A stretch of DNA of 64,000 nt from Allomuricauda sp. ARW1Y1 (lineage in GTDB: Bacteria; Bacteroidota; Bacteroidia; Flavobacteriales; Flavobacteriaceae). Under the pieces are notes generated by a model. The model was not told the DNA's origin and did no database searches. It saw nothing but the letters and a program-made list of their open reading frames with translations. Every line of letters starts with the position of its first letter. The first letter of the stretch is position 1. The DNA is taken from contig NZ_JACBZU010000002.1 in assembly GCF_013407935.1 (NCBI RefSeq), positions 310,001-374,000 on the forward strand, given 5' to 3'. Shown here piece after piece: positions 1 through 61,261 of this stretch. Both the position numbers and the translations under genes were made by a program.

Positions 1-1
1 C

Positions 2-1819
2 AAAACCTCAGTGGTCGCCAAGGACACCCCAGCTTTTATCGGTAACCGAATTGGAATTTTTAGCATTCAAAGCCTGTTCCATGCCGTTAAGGAAATGGGC
101 ATGACGGTGGAGGAAGTGGATAAGCTGACAGGTCCAGTTATTGGTCGACCCAAATCCGCCACCTTCCGTACGGTAGATGTGGTTGGACTCGACACTCTTG
201 TGCACGTAGCAAATGGTATCAGTGAAAACTGCAAGGACGATGAACGTCATGAACTGTTCCAACTGCCCGATTTTATCCAAACCATGATGGACAACCAATG
301 GTTGGGCAGTAAATCTGGACAAGGATTCTACAAAAAGGTAAAAGGAGACGATGGCAAGAGTGAAATCCTGACCTTGGATTTGGATACCATGGATTACCGT
401 TCCAAAAAGAGTGCAAAATTTGCAACCTTGGAACTCACCAAGACCATTGATAAGGTCATAGACCGTTTTCCTGTATTGGTAGATGGCAAAGACAAGGCCG
501 GAGAATTCTATCGTAAGAGCTTTGGAGCTTTATTTGCTTACGTGACCCACCGTATTCCAGAAATTACGGACGAATTATACAAAATAGATGATGCCATGAA
601 AGCCGGCTTTGGTTGGGAACACGGACCTTTCCAAATTTGGGATGCTGTGGGACTCGACAAAGGTTTGGAATTTATCAAGGCAGAAGGTCTGGAAGCAGCC
701 CCTTGGGTAGCAGAGATGAAAGCTGCAGGAATGGACTCCTTCTACACCATAAAAGAAGGTAACACCTATTTCTACGATATTCCTAAGAAGACTATGGAGA
801 AAGTTCCAGGTCAGGATGCCTTTATTATTTTGGACAACATCCGAAAAACCAAAGAGGTCTTTAAAAATAGCGGTGTGGTTATCGAGGATTTGGGTGATGG
901 CATCTTAAACTGTGAATTCCAGTCCAAAATGAACACCATCGGTGGCGACGTACTAGCCGGTTTGAACAAAGCCGTAGACCTTGCCGAAAAGGATTTTGCA
1001 GGTTTGGTTATCGGAAACCAAGCGGCCAATTTCTCCGTTGGCGCCAACATCGGAATGATTTTTATGATGGCTGTGGAACAGGAATACGATGAGCTCAATA
1101 TGGCCATCAAAATGTTCCAAGATACGATGATGCGCATGCGCTACAGTTCCATTCCAACCGTAGCTGCTCCCCACGGTATGTGCTTGGGAGGAGGCTGCGA
1201 ACTTTCGCTTCATGCTGATAAGGTGGTGGCCGCGGCCGAAACCTATATTGGATTAGTGGAATTTGGCGTGGGCGTGATTCCAGGTGGCGGAGGTTCCAAA
1301 GAAATGGCGCTACGTGCCTCGGATACCTTCCGAAAAAATGATGTGGAGCTCAATGTGCTTCAGGAGTATTTCTTGACCATTGGTATGGCCAAAGTATCCA
1401 CCTCAGCCTACGAAGCCTTCGATTTGGGTATCCTTCAAAAAGGAAAAGACGTAGTTGTGGTCAATAAAGACCGTCAGATAGCAACAGCAAAAGCCTATGC
1501 GAAAATCATGGCTGATGCAGGCTACACCAAACCTGTGAAGCGAAAGGATGTCAAGGTCCTTGGAAAACAGGCCTTGGGCATGTTCTTGGTAGGAACTGAC
1601 TCCATGGAAGCGGGACACTACATTTCGGAACACGACAAAAAGATTGCCGATAAATTGGCCTACGTCATGGCTGGAGGCGACCTATCTGAAGCGACAATGG
1701 TAAGCGAACAATATCTTTTGGATTTGGAACGGGAAGCCTTTTTGTCCCTTTGTACCGAAAGAAAAACATTGGAACGCATCCAACACATGTTGAAAACGGG
1801 GAAACCCTTGAGAAATTAG
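2..1819 (+). CDS. fadN: 3-hydroxyacyl-CoA dehydrogenase / enoyl-CoA hydratase, FadN type (5' truncated by window edge)
   Basis: Two-step beta-oxidation enzyme that hydrates enoyl-CoA and oxidises the 3-hydroxyacyl-CoA. The reading frame is open from base 2, so the true start and the NAD-binding Rossmann part lie upstream. Visible order is the end of the dehydrogenase domain, its C-terminal helical domains (motif DTPAFIGNRIG at the left edge; second half near residues 165-230), then a crotonase fold from about residue 310 with CLGGGCELSLHAD and GVGVIPGGGGSKEM. Dehydrogenase first and hydratase last is the B. subtilis FadN order, the reverse of E. coli FadB/FadJ. It is followed by fadA and fadE as in the Bacillus fadNAE operon. 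The family is known; the operon function is inferred from this order. Confidence 0.93.
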   Translation, partial: KTSVVAKDTPAFIGNRIGIFSIQSLFHAVKEMGMTVEEVDKLTGPVIGRPKSATFRTVDVVGLDTLVHVANGISENCKDDERHELFQLPDFIQTMMDNQWLGSKSGQGFYKKVKGDDGKSEILTLDLDTMDYRSKKSAKFATLELTKTIDKVIDRFPVLVDGKDKAGEFYRKSFGALFAYVTHRIPEITDELYKIDDAMKAGFGWEHGPFQIWDAVGLDKGLEFIKAEGLEAAPWVAEMKAAGMDSFYTIKEGNTYFYDIPKKTMEKVPGQDAFIILDNIRKTKEVFKNSGVVIEDLGDGILNCEFQSKMNTIGGDVLAGLNKAVDLAEKDFAGLVIGNQAANFSVGANIGMIFMMAVEQEYDELNMAIKMFQDTMMRMRYSSIPTVAAPHGMCLGGGCELSLHADKVVAAAETYIGLVEFGVGVIPGGGGSKEMALRASDTFRKNDVELNVLQEYFLTIGMAKVSTSAYEAFDLGILQKGKDVVVVNKDRQIATAKAYAKIMADAGYTKPVKRKDVKVLGKQALGMFLVGTDSMEAGHYISEHDKKIADKLAYVMAGGDLSEATMVSEQYLLDLEREAFLSLCTERKTLERIQHMLKTGKPLRN

Positions 1820-1824
1820 ACACA

Positions 1825-1879
1825 AGAATCAAGACAAAAGAGCCAAGACCCAAAATCCTGACTCTTGGTTCTTGAATCT
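1825..1879. repeat. Inverted 7-bp-periodic repeat (empty heptad element) between fadN and fadA
   Basis: The left arm carries AGA at 1825, 1832, 1839 and 1846. The right arm carries TCC at 1856 and TCT at 1863, 1870 and 1877. All steps are exactly 7 bp. The arms 1825-1848 and 1856-1879 are complementary at 18 of 24 positions by eye, so the transcript can fold into a long imperfect hairpin. It fills the fadN-fadA gap except for 17 A-rich bases before the fadA start. There is no U-run, so a simple terminator is unlikely. Confidence 0.8.
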
Positions 1880-1896
1880 AAAAATCAAAAAGAAAA

Positions 1897-3087
1897 ATGA
1901 AAACAGCATACATAGTAAAAGGATATAGAACAGCCGTGGGCAAAGCGCCAAAGGGATTGTTCCGGTTTAAGCGACCTGACGAACTGGCCGCGGAGACCAT
2001 CGAGTACATGATGAACGAGTTGCCCCAGCTCGACAAAAAACGTATTGATGACGTTATCGTTGGAAATGCCATGCCCGAAGCCGAACAAGGTTTAAACATG
2101 GGACGGCTCATCTCCCTGATGGGATTGAACATCGAGGATGTCCCTGGGGTGACCGTGAATCGCTATTGCGCATCTGGATTGGAGACCATTGGCATTGCTA
2201 CGGCGAAAATACAATCAGGAATGGCGGATTGCATCATTGCAGGTGGTGCGGAAAGCATGAGCTACATACCCATGGGAGGTTACAAACCTACCCCGGATTA
2301 TGCTACTGCTAAAGCAGGGCACGAGGACTACTACTGGGGTATGGGACTTACAGCCGAAGCTGTGGCCCAGCAATTCAAAGTTTCCCGTGAAGACCAAGAC
2401 GAATTTGCCTTCAACTCCCATATGAAAGCACTTAAAGCACAGGAGGAAAACCGTTTTCAAGACCAAATCGTGCCCATTGAGGTGGAACACACCTTTGTGA
2501 ACGAGGCAGGAAAGAAAGAGACAAAGACCTACACGGTCAACAAAGATGAAGGCCCAAGGAAAGGGACTAACATCCCAACCTTGAACAAATTGAGACCCGT
2601 ATTTGCCGAAGGTGGAAGTGTTACGGCAGGTAATTCATCCCAAATGAGCGATGGTGCTGCCTTTGTAATGGTGATGAGCGAAGAAATGGTAAAAGAGCTG
2701 AATCTAGAACCCGTTGCACGTTTAGTGAATTATGCCGCTGCAGGTGTGGAACCAAGAATTATGGGAATTGGCCCCGTAAAAGCCATTCCGAAGGCTCTAA
2801 AACAGGCTGGATTAAAACAGGACCAAATAGACCTTATCGAATTGAACGAAGCCTTCGCTTCACAATCCTTAGCGGTAATTCGTGAGTTGGGACTCAACCA
2901 AGACATCGTAAACGTCAACGGTGGAGCCATAGCACTAGGTCACCCCCTTGGTTGTACTGGAGCCAAATTATCCGTTCAACTTTTTGATGAGATGCGAAAA
3001 CGCGACATGAAAGGAAAGTATGGTATGGTAACCATGTGCGTGGGTACTGGTCAAGGAGCGGCGGGAATATTTGAGTTTCTTTCTTAA
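1897..3087 (+). CDS. fadA: Acetyl-CoA C-acyltransferase (3-ketoacyl-CoA thiolase)
   Basis: Last step of beta-oxidation: thiolytic cleavage of 3-ketoacyl-CoA to acetyl-CoA and a shortened acyl-CoA, in the cytoplasm. The 396 residues are full length for the family. The nucleophilic cysteine is Cys91 in NRYCASGLE. The second catalytic region shows GGAIALGHPLGCTGAK near the C terminus, followed by MCVGTGQGAAGIFE. It is the second gene of the fadN-fadA-fadE operon, 77 bp after fadN. It is followed at once by the inverted heptad element that carries the four-helix-bundle gene. Confidence 0.95.
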   Translation: MKTAYIVKGYRTAVGKAPKGLFRFKRPDELAAETIEYMMNELPQLDKKRIDDVIVGNAMPEAEQGLNMGRLISLMGLNIEDVPGVTVNRYCASGLETIGIATAKIQSGMADCIIAGGAESMSYIPMGGYKPTPDYATAKAGHEDYYWGMGLTAEAVAQQFKVSREDQDEFAFNSHMKALKAQEENRFQDQIVPIEVEHTFVNEAGKKETKTYTVNKDEGPRKGTNIPTLNKLRPVFAEGGSVTAGNSSQMSDGAAFVMVMSEEMVKELNLEPVARLVNYAAAGVEPRIMGIGPVKAIPKALKQAGLKQDQIDLIELNEAFASQSLAVIRELGLNQDIVNVNGGAIALGHPLGCTGAKLSVQLFDEMRKRDMKGKYGMVTMCVGTGQGAAGIFEFLS

Positions 3088-3510
3088 GGTTAAAGAAAAA
3101 AGACTACAGAAAAGAGATGTTCCAAATGAAAAGGCATAACTATAAAAACTTGAAAATCTGGTCGCTTGGATTGGAAATTGCAAATGACATTTCTGATTTG
3201 CTCATTCATTTCCCTAAACACGAAAGATATGACCTAAGTTCCCAGATAAGTAGATGCTCCGTGTCCATGCCGAGCAATATAGCTGAAGGATCTGCGAGAA
3301 CGGACAAATCTTTTAAGTATTTCATAGATATTGCTTTGGGATCCTCCTTTGAATTAGGAACACAGCTTTTGGTTGCAAAACATAGAAAATATATTAATAC
3401 TGAAATTTTAAAAACACTTGAAGATAAAATTGAAGAATGGCAAAAGATGACCATGGGTTTTCAAAACGGGTTGGAATAGGTCTTTCCTCTATTTTCTATC
3501 TTCTTTAATC
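3088..3510 (+). mobile_element. Putative IVS-like element: inverted heptad repeats enclosing a four-helix-bundle ORF
   Basis: The element starts at the base after the fadA stop and ends 10 bp before the fadE start. The left arm (3088-3125) has AGA at 3094, 3101, 3108 and 3115. The right arm (3471-3510) has TCT at 3481, 3488, 3495 and 3502. Steps are exactly 7 bp. The arms are inverted copies: the outer ends share TTAAAGAA and the inner ends TTCCAA, with partial matches between. The inner matches lie inside the first and last codons of the enclosed ORF. The arms are seen directly; mobility is inferred by analogy with 23S rRNA intervening sequences. Confidence 0.55.
3117..3479 (+). CDS. Four-helix bundle protein, 23S rRNA-intervening-sequence (S23/bAvd-like) family
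   Basis: A 120-residue protein of the TIGR02436/PF05635 type, known from ORFs in 23S rRNA intervening sequences and as relatives of the Avd protein of diversity-generating retroelements. The diagnostic segment is SQISRCSVSMPSNIAEGSAR near residues 41-60, followed by helical segments ending in IEEWQKMTMGF. The molecular function is not established. A second in-frame ATG at 3126 is possible, but starting at 3117 places the inner repeat arm inside the first codons. It lies in sense orientation between fadA and fadE, where it has no metabolic reason to be. No reverse transcriptase is in the window. Confidence 0.88.
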   Translation: MFQMKRHNYKNLKIWSLGLEIANDISDLLIHFPKHERYDLSSQISRCSVSMPSNIAEGSARTDKSFKYFIDIALGSSFELGTQLLVAKHRKYINTEILKTLEDKIEEWQKMTMGFQNGLE

Positions 3511-3520
3511 ATTAACAAAA

Positions 3521-5326
3521 ATGGAAACAGCAGAAAAAGACATACTGAGAGGTGGTCAATTTTTGGTCAAGGAGACCAAATGTGAGGACGTTTTCACCCT
3601 TGAAGACCTCAATGAAGAGCAAAAGATGATGCGCGAAAGCACCAAGGAGTTCGTAGACAGAGAGCTATGGGCACACTGGGAGCGTTTTGAGAAAAAAGAC
3701 TACGCCTACACCGAAGAATGCATGCGAAAAGCAGGTGAGCTAGGTCTGCTGAGCGTAGCCGTACCAGAATCGTATGGTGGTATGGGAATGGGCTTTGTGT
3801 CCACCATGTTGGTGTGTGACTACATTTCTGGGGCCACAGGATCATTTAGTACAGCCTTTGGAGCGCACACCGGAATCGGGACCATGCCGATTACGCTATA
3901 CGGAACAGAGGAGCAAAAACAAAAATACGTTCCCAAATTGGCTAGCGGTGAGTGGTTTGGCGCCTATTGCTTAACAGAACCAGGAGCAGGTTCGGATGCC
4001 AACTCCGGTAAAACCAAAGCTGTTCTTTCAGAAGATGGGAAGTATTACAGCATTACAGGACAAAAAATGTGGATTTCCAACGCAGGCTTCTGCAATCTGT
4101 TCATTGTATTTGCGCGTATTGAAGATGACAAGAACATCACAGGCTTTATTGTTGAAAACGATCCAAGCAATGGCATAAGCTTAGGTGATGAGGAAAAGAA
4201 ATTAGGTATCCACTCCTCCTCTACCCGACAAGTATTCTTCAACGAGACCAAAGTACCCGCAGAAAATATGCTTTCCGAGAGAGGCAATGGATTCAAAATC
4301 GCCATGAACGCCTTAAATGTAGGTCGTATCAAATTGGCTGCCGCTTGTTTGGAAGCACAACGCCGTGTGATCAACGAGGCTACGAAATATGCCAATGAGC
4401 GTGTTCAGTTCAAAACACCTATCATCAATTTTGGAGCCATAAAAGCAAAAATTGCAGACATGGCCACCAACGCTTATGTGGATGAAGCTGCATGCTACCG
4501 TGCCGCCAAAAATATCGAGGATAGAATCGCCATTCGCGAAGCCAGCGGTAACTCCCATCAAGAAGCGGAACTGAAAGGTGTAGAGGAATACGCCATTGAA
4601 TGCTCTATTTTGAAAGTAGCCGTTTCCGAGCACGTGCAACATACTACGGATGAAGGCATCCAAGTATTCGGAGGAATGGGCTTTAGCGCTGATACTCCAA
4701 TGGAATCGGCATGGAGAGACGCTCGAATCTCTAGAATTTATGAAGGTACGAACGAAATCAACCGTATGCTTTCCGTAGGCATGTTGGTAAAAAAAGCCAT
4801 GAAAGGTCATGTGGACCTTTTAGGGCCAGCCACTGCCGTGGGCGAAGAGTTGATGGGAATTCCATCCTTCGATACACCTGATTTTTCAGAATTGTTGTCC
4901 GAAGAAAAGGACTTGCTTGCCCGATTGAAGAAAGTATTCTTGATGGTCGCCGGTAGTGCCGTTCAAAAGTTTGGACCCGATTTGGAAAAACACCAAATGT
5001 TGTTGATGGCCGCTTCAGATATCTTGATTCAAATCTACATGGCAGAATCAGCCCTACTTAGAACCGAGAAAAATGCAAAACGCTTCGGCGAAGAGGCACA
5101 AGCTACCCAAATCGCCATGTCCAAGCTGTATTTGTATAGGGCGGTGGACATCATCCAACAAAAGGCCAAGGAAGCCATCGTATCCTTTGCCGAAGGTGAT
5201 GAACAACGTATGATGTTAATGGGACTTAAAAGATTCACAAAGTACGCTAACCAGCCCAATGTGGTAAAACTTAGAACGCAGATTGCGGACAAAGTGGCCG
5301 CTGACAATGGGTATACCTTTGACTAA
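3521..5326 (+). CDS. fadE: Acyl-CoA dehydrogenase
   Basis: FAD-dependent first step of beta-oxidation, oxidising acyl-CoA to trans-2-enoyl-CoA and passing electrons to ETF. The 601 residues fit the longer FadE/VLCAD-like class: an N-terminal helical domain, a middle beta domain with CLTEPGAGSDANS and GQKMWISNAG, a C-terminal helical domain and a roughly 170-residue extension. The catalytic glutamate is Glu408 in IYEGTNEIN. It is the third enzyme of the fadNAE operon and is followed by a strong terminator at 5365. The start at 3521 is the only methionine fitting the conserved N terminus. Confidence 0.94.
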   Translation: METAEKDILRGGQFLVKETKCEDVFTLEDLNEEQKMMRESTKEFVDRELWAHWERFEKKDYAYTEECMRKAGELGLLSVAVPESYGGMGMGFVSTMLVCDYISGATGSFSTAFGAHTGIGTMPITLYGTEEQKQKYVPKLASGEWFGAYCLTEPGAGSDANSGKTKAVLSEDGKYYSITGQKMWISNAGFCNLFIVFARIEDDKNITGFIVENDPSNGISLGDEEKKLGIHSSSTRQVFFNETKVPAENMLSERGNGFKIAMNALNVGRIKLAAACLEAQRRVINEATKYANERVQFKTPIINFGAIKAKIADMATNAYVDEAACYRAAKNIEDRIAIREASGNSHQEAELKGVEEYAIECSILKVAVSEHVQHTTDEGIQVFGGMGFSADTPMESAWRDARISRIYEGTNEINRMLSVGMLVKKAMKGHVDLLGPATAVGEELMGIPSFDTPDFSELLSEEKDLLARLKKVFLMVAGSAVQKFGPDLEKHQMLLMAASDILIQIYMAESALLRTEKNAKRFGEEAQATQIAMSKLYLYRAVDIIQQKAKEAIVSFAEGDEQRMMLMGLKRFTKYANQPNVVKLRTQIADKVAADNGYTFD

Positions 5327-5364
5327 TTCCAATAATCATGGGGGAATACACCCTCCAAGATTTG

Positions 5365-5391
5365 AAAACGCCCCGGTCGGGGCGTTTTTTT
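5365..5391 (+). terminator. Intrinsic terminator of the fad operon
   Basis: GC stem CGCCCCG / CGGGGCG (5369-5375 with 5378-5384), with an A-run before and a T-run after. It lies 38 bp beyond fadE. The rest of 5327-5628 shows no gene and no clear promoter match; the last 60 bp before 5629 are very AT-rich. Confidence 0.88.
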
Positions 5392-5628
5392 ATGATTACT
5401 GCTGAATAATTTGCCCTTCATTTTCAACTGCATCAGGGGTTACAGCAACTTAATTTCAGGTATCTATTTCGACATGTGCTTTGTGCGTTGAAAACAGTAT
5501 TTGGGTCTCCGGAAACGCAAACTGAAAAAATGTTTGTGCTCTCTTGTATTTTCTGTCAAATCTTTTCTAAAATGATGTAACAATTTCATTATTTTTAAAA
5601 CTAATCATTACAACATAAAAACTTAAAA

Positions 5629-6399
5629 ATGAAAGCGTTAAAATTAACCATTACACTTATCGCTGTTGCACTGGCCATGCCGCTTCAGGCGCAAACCGCG
5701 GATGAAATCATCGAAAATTATTTTGAGAACACGGGTGGACTCGATAATTGGAAAAATTTAGAGGGCATCAAAATGACCGCCAAAGTGAACCAGGGCGGTA
5801 TGGAAATTCCTTTGGAAATCTATAATCTAAAAGATGGTCGACAAATGACGAAAATCACCTTTCAGGGTAAGGAAATCAAACAAGGAGTATTTGATGGAGA
5901 AACGCTCTGGAGCCATAACTTTATGACCATGAAAGCGGAAAAATCGGATGCCGAGGAAACCTCCAATTTTAAACTGAACACCAACGACTTTCCTGATTCC
6001 TTTATTGACTACAAAGAAAAAGGGTACACCGTTGAGCTTCTTGGCACTGAAACTATAGATGGAACGGAGACCTTCAAGATAAAATTGGTCAAAGAACCCA
6101 TTACCATTGATGGTACGCAACAGGATGATGTTTCGTATTACTTTTTTGACAAAGACAATTTTGTACCCATCGCAATGCAGTCCGAAATTAAATCAGGACC
6201 AGCTAAAGGACAGGTTAGCGAAGTAACCATGAGCGATTATCAAGAAGTAAATGGCATGTACTTTCCATTTTCCATGACACAGGGCGTAAAGGATGGTCAA
6301 GCGCAGCCTATCACCATTGACAGCATCGAACTCAACCCTGCCATTGCAGATACTGAATTTGCTTTCCCAGATGAAGTGGGCGAGACTGAAAAAAAATAA
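5629..6399 (+). CDS. LolA-like outer-membrane lipoprotein-sorting family protein, exported
   Basis: 256 residues with a signal peptide (about residues 1-21, ending LQAQ). The body resembles the LolA/LolB-fold outer-membrane lipoprotein-sorting proteins common in Bacteroidota: alternating beta strands, the repeated themes LEGIKMTAKVNQGG and VSEVTMSDYQEVNGMYFPF, and a long C-terminal strand region. It probably binds a hydrophobic ligand in the periplasm, but substrate and partner are unknown. It stands alone between two terminators, so it is probably monocistronic. The fold assignment is moderately sure and the function is open. Confidence 0.7.
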   Translation: MKALKLTITLIAVALAMPLQAQTADEIIENYFENTGGLDNWKNLEGIKMTAKVNQGGMEIPLEIYNLKDGRQMTKITFQGKEIKQGVFDGETLWSHNFMTMKAEKSDAEETSNFKLNTNDFPDSFIDYKEKGYTVELLGTETIDGTETFKIKLVKEPITIDGTQQDDVSYYFFDKDNFVPIAMQSEIKSGPAKGQVSEVTMSDYQEVNGMYFPFSMTQGVKDGQAQPITIDSIELNPAIADTEFAFPDEVGETEKK

Positions 6400-43840: not shown

Positions 43841-43938
43841 AAGGTTAAGGGTTAAGGGTTAAGGGTTAAGGGTGAAAGGTGAAAGGTGAAAGGTGAAAGG
43901 TGAAGGGTTAAGGGTTAAGGGTTAAGGGTGAAGGGTGA
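43841..43938. repeat. Tandem heptanucleotide array inside the 2TM operon
   Basis: Fourteen directly repeated 7-bp units of the form A-R-G-G-T-K-A with no interruption, from 43841 to 43938, made of blocks of AGGGTTA-, AAGGTGA- and AGGGTGA-type units. It lies in the 255-bp gap between the histidine kinase gene and the first 2TM gene. No coding frame fits. It has one arm only; no inverted partner was seen. Confidence 0.93.
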
Positions 43939-43989
43939 AGACCGGAATTTTAATCTAAATCAGGGGGTGCTCGATTCCAGTCTCCAATA

Positions 43990-58209: not shown

Positions 58210-58385
58210 ATGCACAAAAGAAGTGATTTTTTTGGGATTTGTAACAATGGATGTTGGATTGACGGATGATTGGATTTTGTATGGTTATGTGGTTTTAAGG
58301 TTTAGAGTTTGGTGTTTTGGGTTTTGGACGTTTGGTGTTCACTGCCCACTGCAAACTGCCTACCAATAATGGTCCATTTTCTATC

Positions 58386-58426
58386 GTCATTTCGACATGA
58401 GGAACAAAGTGACGATGGAGAAATCC
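58386..58426. repeat. Dispersed 41-bp palindrome-like repeat, copy 1
   Basis: GTCATTTCGACATGAGGAAC followed by AAAGTGACGATGGAGAAATC. Nearly the same sequence occurs at 60987-61027. Arms GTCATTTC and GA-rich end pair loosely. I recall this type of sequence as common between genes in Flavobacteriia. Confidence 0.75.
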
Positions 58427-58680
58427 AGTGGAAAAACTCAAACTCAAATTTAAGTTTCAAGTTCAAAGTTTGAGGTTTAAGGTTGAACTTCTAAGGGTTA
58501 ATTCAAATGACAAAGAACCCTATTCGTGCTAATTCGTGAAATTAGTGTCAACTACCTACAAACCCGCAATGCGAAACACGCAACTCCCAATTTCGGTCTT
58601 CGGACTTCCAACTGCCCAACACATCAAGTCTATTTTCCTTCATCTTTTCCCTCCTGATTCTTGGCTCTTGGTTCTTAACA

Positions 58681-58786
58681 CCCCACTGAACAAGGTTCTC
58701 GATACATTTTTTGCCTCTTTTTTTCAAAAACCGCCAAAAAACACTCGAACTGACAAACTTTTTACAAAACCTTCAATTTCAACTGG
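58681..58786. repeat. About 105-bp dispersed block, copy 1
   Basis: Begins CCCCACTGAACAAGGTTCTC, continues with CATTTTTTG, CAAAAACCGCC and AACACTCGAACTGACA, and ends with CAATTTCAACTG. Copies 2 and 3 are at 59068 and 61122. TTTTTTG and CAAAAA parts can pair as a hairpin. Confidence 0.85.
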
Positions 58787-58920
58787 CCACTAACTCGCAA
58801 CTTCCGACTCCGGACTCCCGACTTCGGACTTCCGGTAGCCCACCAAACCAAGTCTATTTTCTATGGTCTTTTCTCCCCTTATTCTTGATTCTTGGCTCTT
58901 GGTTCCAGTAAAGATTTCTC

Positions 58921-58968
58921 GACTGCCCCCTCGACTGCGCTCGGGGTGACAGCTCGAAATGACATCCT
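58921..58968. repeat. Insertion of the CTCGACTGCGCTCG-type palindrome
   Basis: Contains CTCGACTGCGCTCGGGGTGA and AGCTCGAAATGACA, the same motif family as the core of the long palindrome at 9507-9648. It interrupts the heptad-block order in the island. Confidence 0.6.
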
Positions 58969-59067
58969 AACTCGAAACACGCAACCCTAAACTTCGGACT
59001 TCCAACAGCCCACCAAACCAAGTCTATTTTCAATCGTCTTTTCTCTCCTTATTCTTGATTCTTGGCT

Positions 59068-59173
59068 CCCCACTGAAATAGGTTCTCGATACATTTTTTG
59101 TCTCTTTTTTACAAAAACCGCCAAAAAACACTCGAACTGACAAACCCTCTTACAAAACCAACAATTTCAACTG
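59068..59173. repeat. About 105-bp dispersed block, copy 2
   Basis: Same order of parts as the copy at 58681, with a few base changes. It is followed at 59170 by tandem ACTGCAA heptads (ACTG at 59170, 59177, 59184, 59191). Confidence 0.85.
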
Positions 59174-59285
59174 CAAACTGCAAACTGCAAACTGACTTTC
59201 GACTTCCGACTTCCCACTCCCGACTTCCGACTTCCGACTTCTCAAATCTAACATCTTAAGTCTAAAATTTAAGACCTCCAAAAAA

Positions 59286-60975: not shown

Positions 60976-60986
60976 GACGGTAAGAG

Positions 60987-61027
60987 GTCATTTCGACATG
61001 AGGAACGTAGTGACGATGGAGAAATCT
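60987..61027. repeat. Dispersed 41-bp repeat, copy 2
   Basis: Same sequence as 58386-58426 except for a few bases (AACGTAGTGACG instead of AACAAAGTGACG). Confidence 0.75.
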
Positions 61028-61038
61028 GTTTGAAAACC

Positions 61039-61118
61039 CAAGTTCAAGCATCAAGTTCATAAAAACTGCCCTCTTGGGTCTTGCATCTTGATTCCTGTTT
61101 CTTGGCTCCTATTTCTTG
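61039..61118. repeat. Inverted heptad element (second empty copy)
   Basis: The left arm has CAAG at 61039, 61045 and 61052. The right arm has CTTG (CCTG once) at 61073, 61080, 61087, 61094, 61101 and 61115, each in 7-bp phase with one unit altered. The arms are of opposite sense, as in the elements at 1825 and 3088. Confidence 0.65.
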
Positions 61119-61121
61119 ATA

Positions 61122-61215
61122 CTCCACTGAACAAGGTTCTCGATACATTTTTTGCCTCTTTTTTTGCAAAAATCGCCAAAAAACACTCGAACTGACAACC
61201 CTTCTTACAAAATCT
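61122..61215. repeat. About 105-bp dispersed block, copy 3
   Basis: Same order of parts as the copies at 58681 and 59068 (GGTTCTCGATACATTTTTTG; ACACTCGAACTGACA). Here the hairpin loop has TTTTTTTGCAAAAA. Confidence 0.85.
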
Positions 61216-61261
61216 TCAACTGCCTACTGCAAACTGAATCCTGTCTCCTGTCTCCTGAAGA

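Follow-up and report, generated by a model that had tools for sequence, protein, structure and literature searches.

A probable small mobile element of the intervening-sequence type, with a PF05635 gene between inverted heptad arms, at the fadA-fadE junction of a flavobacterial operon

The analysed window, a stretch of 64,000 nucleotides from Allomuricauda sp. ARW1Y1 (contig NZ_JACBZU010000002.1, positions 310,001 to 374,000), begins with a beta-oxidation operon, the first gene of which is a FadB-type ORF listed at 11-1819. On the forward strand this operon also comprises a fadA-type gene for an acetyl-CoA acyltransferase (thiolase; 1897-3087) and a fadE-type gene for an acyl-CoA dehydrogenase (3521-5326), the upstream and downstream host genes of the element described here. 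An initial annotation of this DNA had stated that a small ORF fits the gap between fadA and fadE and is bracketed by AGA and TCT trinucleotides, four each, at 7-base steps, and inspection of the positions confirmed this (fadA stop 3087, ORF end 3479, fadE start 3521). The 5' arm (3088-3125, forward strand) abuts the fadA stop codon and contains four AGA heptads (3094-3117), with AGA at 3094, 3101, 3108 and 3115. The 3' arm (3480-3511, forward strand) contains four TCT heptads (3481-3504), with TCT at 3481, 3488, 3495 and 3502, is complementary to the 5' arm and is followed by fadE 9 nt further on. Between the arms lies the gene for a PF05635 four-helix-bundle protein (23S IVP/S23; 3126-3479, forward strand), known from the ORF listing and a profile match. 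The listed ORF starts at 3117; since related proteins open with MKRHNY, the true start is probably the ATG at 3126, which would give 117 codons.

In the window the pattern AGA(N4AGA)3 occurs six times on both strands taken together, compared to a mean of 0.00 and a largest count of 0 in 100 shuffles; three overlapping occurrences lie in an array at 1811-1848, one in each arm of the fadA-fadE element and one at 59240. When the arms themselves were shuffled, the fourfold AGA arose in 33 and the fourfold TCT in 12 of 200,000 shuffles, and any fourfold trinucleotide in 114 (5' arm) and 50 (3' arm) of 50,000. The complementarity of the arms, likewise part of the initial annotation, was borne out: their predicted duplex has an energy of -18.2 kcal/mol, the shuffled mean being -10.5 (10 of 1000 shuffles as low), and the minimum-energy fold of 3085-3515 brings them together. 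The whole fold of 3085-3515 was not unusually stable relative to shuffles (z -0.03, 50 of 100 as low). An inverted-repeat finder, which listed one other pair, did not pair the arms because their match is imperfect. A second inverted heptad pair, without an ORF, occupies the junction of the fadB-type gene and fadA (1811-1880, forward strand), beginning within the last codons of the upstream gene; its predicted hairpin has a z of -3.8, with 1 of 200 shuffles as low. Rfam models, run on window positions 1-6000, gave two matches below the gathering score, at the fadE end and beyond it.

The window protein matched PF05635 (23S rRNA-intervening sequence protein) with an E-value of 8.9e-30, above the curated cut-off, and also matched TIGR02436. 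It had been described as S23/bAvd-type; the S23 half of that description stands, whereas the match to bAvd (E 5e-4) falls under the cut-off of the bAvd family. Matches to the PHROG Avd family (E 2.9e-5) and to NCBIfam Avd (9.9e-5, under the cut-off) were also obtained. The Avd and bAvd proteins of diversity-generating retroelements have a related fold, but the window protein scores far better as PF05635; the relation is also noted in PMC10053308. The reverse transcriptase that accompanies the Avd gene in such retroelements was not found in strain G018, which carries the same element. Profile searches identified two solved relatives, 2gsc and 2rld, with five chains in each, and a Xanthomonas S23 protein is called a homopentamer in a section of PMC4990558. 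A divergent copy (L096) remains within PF05635 (E 4e-24). For the element ORFs, dN/dS was 0.04-0.10, and for fadA 0.02-0.04, values which indicate that the element ORFs are under purifying selection.

The genome of the window (G000) contains four PF05635 genes. By eye, each of these genes lies beside heptad arrays with a distinct heptamer; at L002 the left arm is weak. PF05635 was present in 58 of 60 sampled genomes of the genus, in 116 of 148 sampled genomes of the phylum and in none of 14 control genomes. We assembled 178 elements in five sets (genus, phylum, named genomes, viral contigs and mostly cyanobacterial plasmids) and measured self-match at each lag over 45 nt on either side of the ORF; left out of the counts were L013 and L017 (short contigs) and L238 and L243 (broken frame), and L103 and L104 entered no analysis. 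At lag 7 the left and right self-matches were 0.42 and 0.47 in the genus (32 of 34 loci used), 0.38 and 0.43 in the phylum (30 loci), 0.38 and 0.46 in viral contigs (28 of 30 loci) and 0.57 and 0.69 in cyanobacterial plasmids (7 loci). The values for named genomes were 0.49 on both sides (80 loci, the top 80 among 579 obtained with a single query alignment and hence related to each other). Lag 7 was the maximum in every set and in both arms, and lag 14 was also elevated, except in viral left arms (0.30); 300 nt away from the elements there was no 7-base period (lag-7 self-match 0.22-0.28). A significant array (p ≤ 0.05 from 60 shuffles) was found on at least one side of 158 of the 178 elements and on both sides of 94, and arrays most often had four units (97 of 252), followed by five (61 of 252). 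Thus the search of other genomes proposed in the initial annotation, for four-helix-bundle ORFs within 7-bp arrays, uncovered a large class. The phenomenon is far wider than first supposed: the arms are not peculiar to fadA-fadE and occur at many sites, and the heptamer varies between elements and elsewhere is usually not AGA-based, so that the earlier account was too narrow.

Some side observations concern these loci. In the left arms of L018 and L028 the period appears by eye to be 8 rather than 7 bases, and some right arms show a small rise at lag 8 (genus 0.36, phylum 0.33). Two bins labelled Klebsiella pneumoniae (L155) and Bifidobacterium breve (L159) contain genes closely related (63-64% identity) to a flavobacterial gene, and the labels are probably wrong.

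According to Mrazek (2007), whom PMC4679880 cites, heptamers are in most genomes the most frequent of the 5-11-nt long simple repeats, and the arms could in principle be ordinary intergenic simple repeats made by polymerase slippage, the gene lying among them by chance. The window itself holds 11 lag-7 arrays, the remaining lags between 4 and 11 yielding 0-2 each, and the control gaps show a slight rise at lag 7 (0.32 versus 0.28-0.31). Heptad arrays without the gene reached a score of at least 12 in 21 of 197 control intergenic gaps of the same loci, several of them within the window. These counts show that heptad arrays are common in these genomes; however, element arms are much richer, 156 of 356 reaching the same score. 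As the arms are, moreover, matched within an element, polarised and absent by eye from empty junctions (see below), we consider slippage with a chance association very improbable.

Matching of the arms was analysed by duplex energy in 116 of the 178 elements, kept after de-duplication. The mean for an element's own arms was -26.2 kcal/mol, compared to -17.9 for arms taken from different elements, and in 5000 permutations, whether overall or within sets, none attained the observed own-arm mean. The alternative raised beforehand, that the arms vary randomly, is therefore at odds with the data. Nevertheless, many individual elements are unremarkable in pairing: the own partner fell within the best 5% of its row in only 39 of 116, and in local alignment the own arms exceeded the 95th percentile of mismatched pairs at only 6 of 32 loci in the genus, 17 of 30 in the phylum, 14 of 80 in named genomes, 16 of 28 in viral contigs and 2 of 7 in the cyanobacterial set. 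The arms are also polarised, with G exceeding C in 115 of 130 significant left (5') arms and C exceeding G in 114 of 122 right (3') arms. A purine bias of the arms was also considered and proved inconsistent (named genomes 0.51 left, 0.55 right); only the G/C polarity held. An origin of the left arm as a fold-back of the host gene end agreed with a few fadB-fadA copies (own 3.57 versus cross 2.50 over 28 fad junctions) and was dropped, since 125 other elements gave 2.06 and 2.05. At one locus, on a Pseudanabaena galeata plasmid (L246), the arrays are direct and not inverted. There, a PF05635-type gene (1995-2354), flanked by AGCTAAA/AAAAGCC direct heptads, separates cas6 from cas4 in a type I-D CRISPR-Cas locus.

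In the genus, the median distance from the upstream stop codon to the beginning of the left array is 2 nt (15 arms measurable, 32 loci), and that from the end of the right array to the next start is 4 nt (21 arms measurable, 32 loci); the medians for the phylum are 4 nt and 5 nt (13 and 13 arms of 30 loci). In named genomes the medians are -3 nt on the left and -36.5 nt on the right (61 and 58 of 80), and the tight right-hand fit to start codons is thus not confirmed there, perhaps because the start-codon rule chose too early a start. The ORF runs in the same direction as both neighbours at 32 of 32 loci in the genus, 23 of 27 in the phylum, 68 of 75 in named genomes and 6 of 8 on plasmids, compared to 80 of 140 co-directional control triplets in the same loci. 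On viral contigs (L215-L244), by contrast, it runs along both neighbours in only 3 of 22 cases and antisense to both in 13 of 22 (seven groups by eye). Loci without 700 nt of flank or a recognised neighbour were omitted from these orientation counts (3 of 30 phylum, 5 of 80 named, 6 of 28 viral). In the antisense viral copies a host message would not always be available, which argues against a constant dependence on it. A location in a 23S rRNA gene was also considered and set aside for the loci compared with E. coli rrlH, none of which matched it.

Occupancy of the host junctions was compared across genomes, as the initial annotation had advised for fadA-fadE. Among 37 genomes including that of the window, the fadA-fadE junction holds a full element in 12, a long insert with a broken ORF in 3 and an insert of 85-152 nt in 5, and is empty (20-28 nt) in 17. 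The empty junctions in these relatives identify the fadA-fadE block as an insert. The fadB-fadA junction, in 36 genomes, holds 12 full elements, 15 short inserts (40-85 nt) and one insert with an apparently unrelated ORF, and is empty (1 nt) in 8; L101, which lacks fadA, was left out, as was L074 where its fadB end is missing. The exceptional insert (L095) is 545 nt long and its ORF is seemingly unrelated to PF05635. By eye, at least five of the short inserts at the two junctions are inverted heptad pairs, the others being small palindromes or unclear, and heptad arms are absent from the empty junctions. The window's own pair at 1811-1880 is one of this kind, at a junction that carries full PF05635 elements in other genomes.

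Two further junctions, beside another copy, were followed in the 30 best-matching of 59 genomes. At one, 22 genomes have a gap of exactly 20 nt, three a gap of 196-208 nt and five a gap of 448-511 nt; at the other, 20 genomes have 21-37 nt, six have 49-227 nt and four have 470-573 nt. Most simply, the constant short gap would be the ancestral state. Even within one species the sites are polymorphic. Strain G018 lacks the insert that G000 has at one of these two junctions and carries an insert of its own about 1.1 kb away, where G000 has a short gap; at a third polymorphic site the ORF is present in G018 and the arms stand alone in G000. Loss of the arms from around a retained ORF, a pattern named in advance as adverse, was not what we saw in a close strain: in a same-species strain neither the ORF nor either arm has changed (L003/L256). 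Some junctions, inspected by eye, suggested that insertion converts TAA to TAG; we drew no rule from this, because TAG is likewise found at the end of empty fadB-fadA junctions. Visual inspection revealed no target-site duplication.

Sequence comparison also points to exchange of the inserts between genomes. At fadB-fadA, four genomes share one PF05635 lineage; with one of them (L081) as reference, identity over the entire insert is 93% for the other three, whereas the adjoining 300 nt of fadB and of fadA are only 79-83% identical, differences restarting 10-13 nt ahead of the stop codon and 7-18 nt past the start codon. Mean synonymous distance (dS) among the four is 0.21 for the element ORF and 1.29 for the adjacent fadA. 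In other groups the gap in identity between insert and flank was smaller or none. The step in identity could come from repeated insertion or from homologous recombination of a short tract. In a tree from which nine rows were left out (the unrelated-looking ORF L095_BA, L257_S2 in the wrong frame, and seven repeats of included copies), a single origin of the fadB-fadA copies was rejected (AU p 4.6e-6). For the fadA-fadE copies the rejection was weak (AU p 0.03) and disappeared without the divergent L096. One and the same junction is thus occupied by different PF05635 lineages. Between two species, identity is 97-99% in an arms-only hairpin and 86-88% in its flanks, so that hairpins of this type, too, may be exchanged or constrained.

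A regulatory role offers another way to read these data, in which the four-helix-bundle protein, once domesticated, would bind the stem of its own transcript and set the ratio of the flanking products, here FadA and FadE. The purifying selection on the ORF (dN/dS 0.04-0.10), the ability of the arms to pair and the high identity of the arms-only hairpin relative to its flanks are all compatible with such a regulator. However, the fadA-fadE junction is empty in 17 of 37 relatives, the same gene family occurs at many unrelated junctions, and different lineages of the gene are found at a single one, which makes domestication of this kind quite unlikely.

How the elements might move was approached through the enzymes encoded in the carrier genomes. 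No mobility enzyme was recognised. The window's genome (G000) has no Y1 transposase (PF01797) and one reverse transcriptase match (RVT_1, PF00078) at C2:636599-637180, more than 320 kb from the element. Strain G018, with five PF05635 matches, has neither RVT_1 nor Y1; G013, with 11, has no RVT_1 and two Y1; and G048, with 15, has two RVT_1 and no Y1. Inverted ends, derivatives without an ORF, antisense copies on viral contigs and exchange between genomes would also be expected of a DNA transposon whose arms are terminal inverted repeats for a transposase or recombinase acting in trans, an RNA step being irrelevant. We regard this as unlikely, since the heptamer differs from element to element, so that no common binding site is seen, and G018 maintains five copies without a PF01797 transposase. 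The opposite G/C polarity of the two ends is what any inverted repeat would have, but the G-rich end is nearly always the 5' one. REPIN/RAYT systems likewise consist of a small gene between inverted repeats plus gene-less copies. The present elements share this layout and differ in that the element contains no Y1 transposase; in the carrier genomes the enzyme is missing from G000, G018 and G048 and found twice in G013.

The closest parallel is the intervening sequence (IVS) of 23S rRNA genes. In the Coxiella burnetii 23S IVS, as described in part of PMC4990558, an S23 ORF lies in sense between complementary ends, heptamers precede the ATG and RNase III cuts at the first repeat. The window element resembles it in the protein family (PF05635, E 8.9e-30), a size of about 430 nt, complementary ends able to close a stem (arms -18.2 kcal/mol; 0 of 5000 permutations for the class, though the whole fold has a z of -0.03), an ORF in the sense of the host transcript (in the window and at 32 of 32 genus loci, not at most viral-contig loci) and tandem heptamers directly before the ORF, here the AGA heptads at 3094-3117. 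In contrast to those inserts, it lies outside 23S rRNA, between the stop and start codons of an mRNA operon at fadA-fadE. Further, we measured heptad arrays on both sides, whereas the description in that part of PMC4990558 covers the 5' side, and cleavage, putative for the fadA-fadE element, is demonstrated there for the Coxiella IVS. The IVS-like character proposed at the outset thus holds for the features that sequence reveals, apart from the 23S location; consequently, we refer to IVS-type elements of mRNA operons and not to 23S IVSs.

Tandem heptamers between genes have been noticed before, among them the STRR repeats of cyanobacteria. Portions of PMC4679880 report heptamer repeats in intergenic regions of Beggiatoaceae, cyanobacteria and Bacteroidetes; these are like the present arrays in being intergenic tandem heptamers from the same phyla and unlike them in being described as direct repeats. 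PMC4679880 nowhere uses the words S23, 23S, intervening or helix bundle. In the open-licence library searched (subscription journals and preprints lay outside the scope) no report was found that joined heptamer repeats with S23 elements, in agreement with the earlier remark that no mRNA version had been described.

Taken together, we think it likely that the block at 3088-3511 is a small mobile IVS-type element that resides in an mRNA operon instead of a 23S rRNA gene. Such an element would consist of one PF05635 gene, a 5' tandem-heptamer array (mostly G-rich over C) and a complementary 3' array, and would occupy the stop-to-start space between two genes, oriented like the operon. Once transcribed, the arms would pair into a stem that encloses the ORF, like the stem of 23S IVSs. 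The insert would then be tolerated, probably through RNase III cuts in the arms or, at a minimum, through its isolation from its neighbours. The elements are predicted to enter junctions, move between genomes and lose their ORF, leaving arms-only hairpins behind. The sequences themselves show the layout of the elements, their wide occurrence, the matching and orientation of the arms, filled and empty states of one junction, exchange between genomes and purifying selection on the ORF. The stem in the cell, its cleavage and the mode of movement are putative steps in this scheme, and excision and a change of the FadA to FadE ratio, as suggested in the initial annotation, are hypothetical. The interpretation given in the initial annotation is partly supported; it is right in kind, with RNA steps that are putative.

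More tentatively, and with considerable doubt, 23S IVSs could be seen as the rRNA-dwelling branch of a large selfish class whose members live between the genes of operons in Bacteroidota, in cyanobacteria and on viral contigs. The element's own RNA-binding protein would then be the PF05635 pentamer, with five subunits gripping successive heptamers of the oriented arms (the arrays peak at four and five units) and with the complex driving both excision and spread into stop/start junctions. The gripping of heptamers by a pentamer is a guess; it would account for a 7-nt period that is kept while the letters drift. PMC4990558 describes as unclear both where 23S intervening sequences come from and what role they have, and says that no function is known for S23 proteins. 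The mobile operon relatives of the ribosomal inserts may be the source of 23S inserts. The shared plan of an S23 gene, matched heptad arms and sense orientation, at polymorphic sites in non-pathogenic marine bacteria, would make the origin and role of IVSs and the function of S23 testable. Arms that remain after loss of the ORF, as at the third site polymorphic within the species, are also a possible source of some intergenic heptamer repeats in these phyla.

Other repeats were observed in the window and its genome. The long intergenic stretches at 58294-59272 and 61072-61257 contain several heptamer arrays (ACTTCCG, ACTGCAA, TCTTGGC and others) and no PF05635 gene. The same intergenic stretches also carry dispersed repeats that are not heptads, at about 58390-58430, 58930-58960 and 60985-61035; one unit contains TCATTTCGACATGAGGAACG...GTGACGATGGAGAAATC and another CTCGACTGCGCTCGGGGTGACA. 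At 43843-43940, an intergenic run of about 98 nt consists of GGTTAAG/GGTGAAA heptads that all point the same way, and inspection of 801 nt by eye revealed no inverted partner. Finally, a repeat of about 50 bp (G000:C10:2690-3347, matching L253 at about 1243-1294) is present in several tandem copies on C10 and in single copies elsewhere in the genome.
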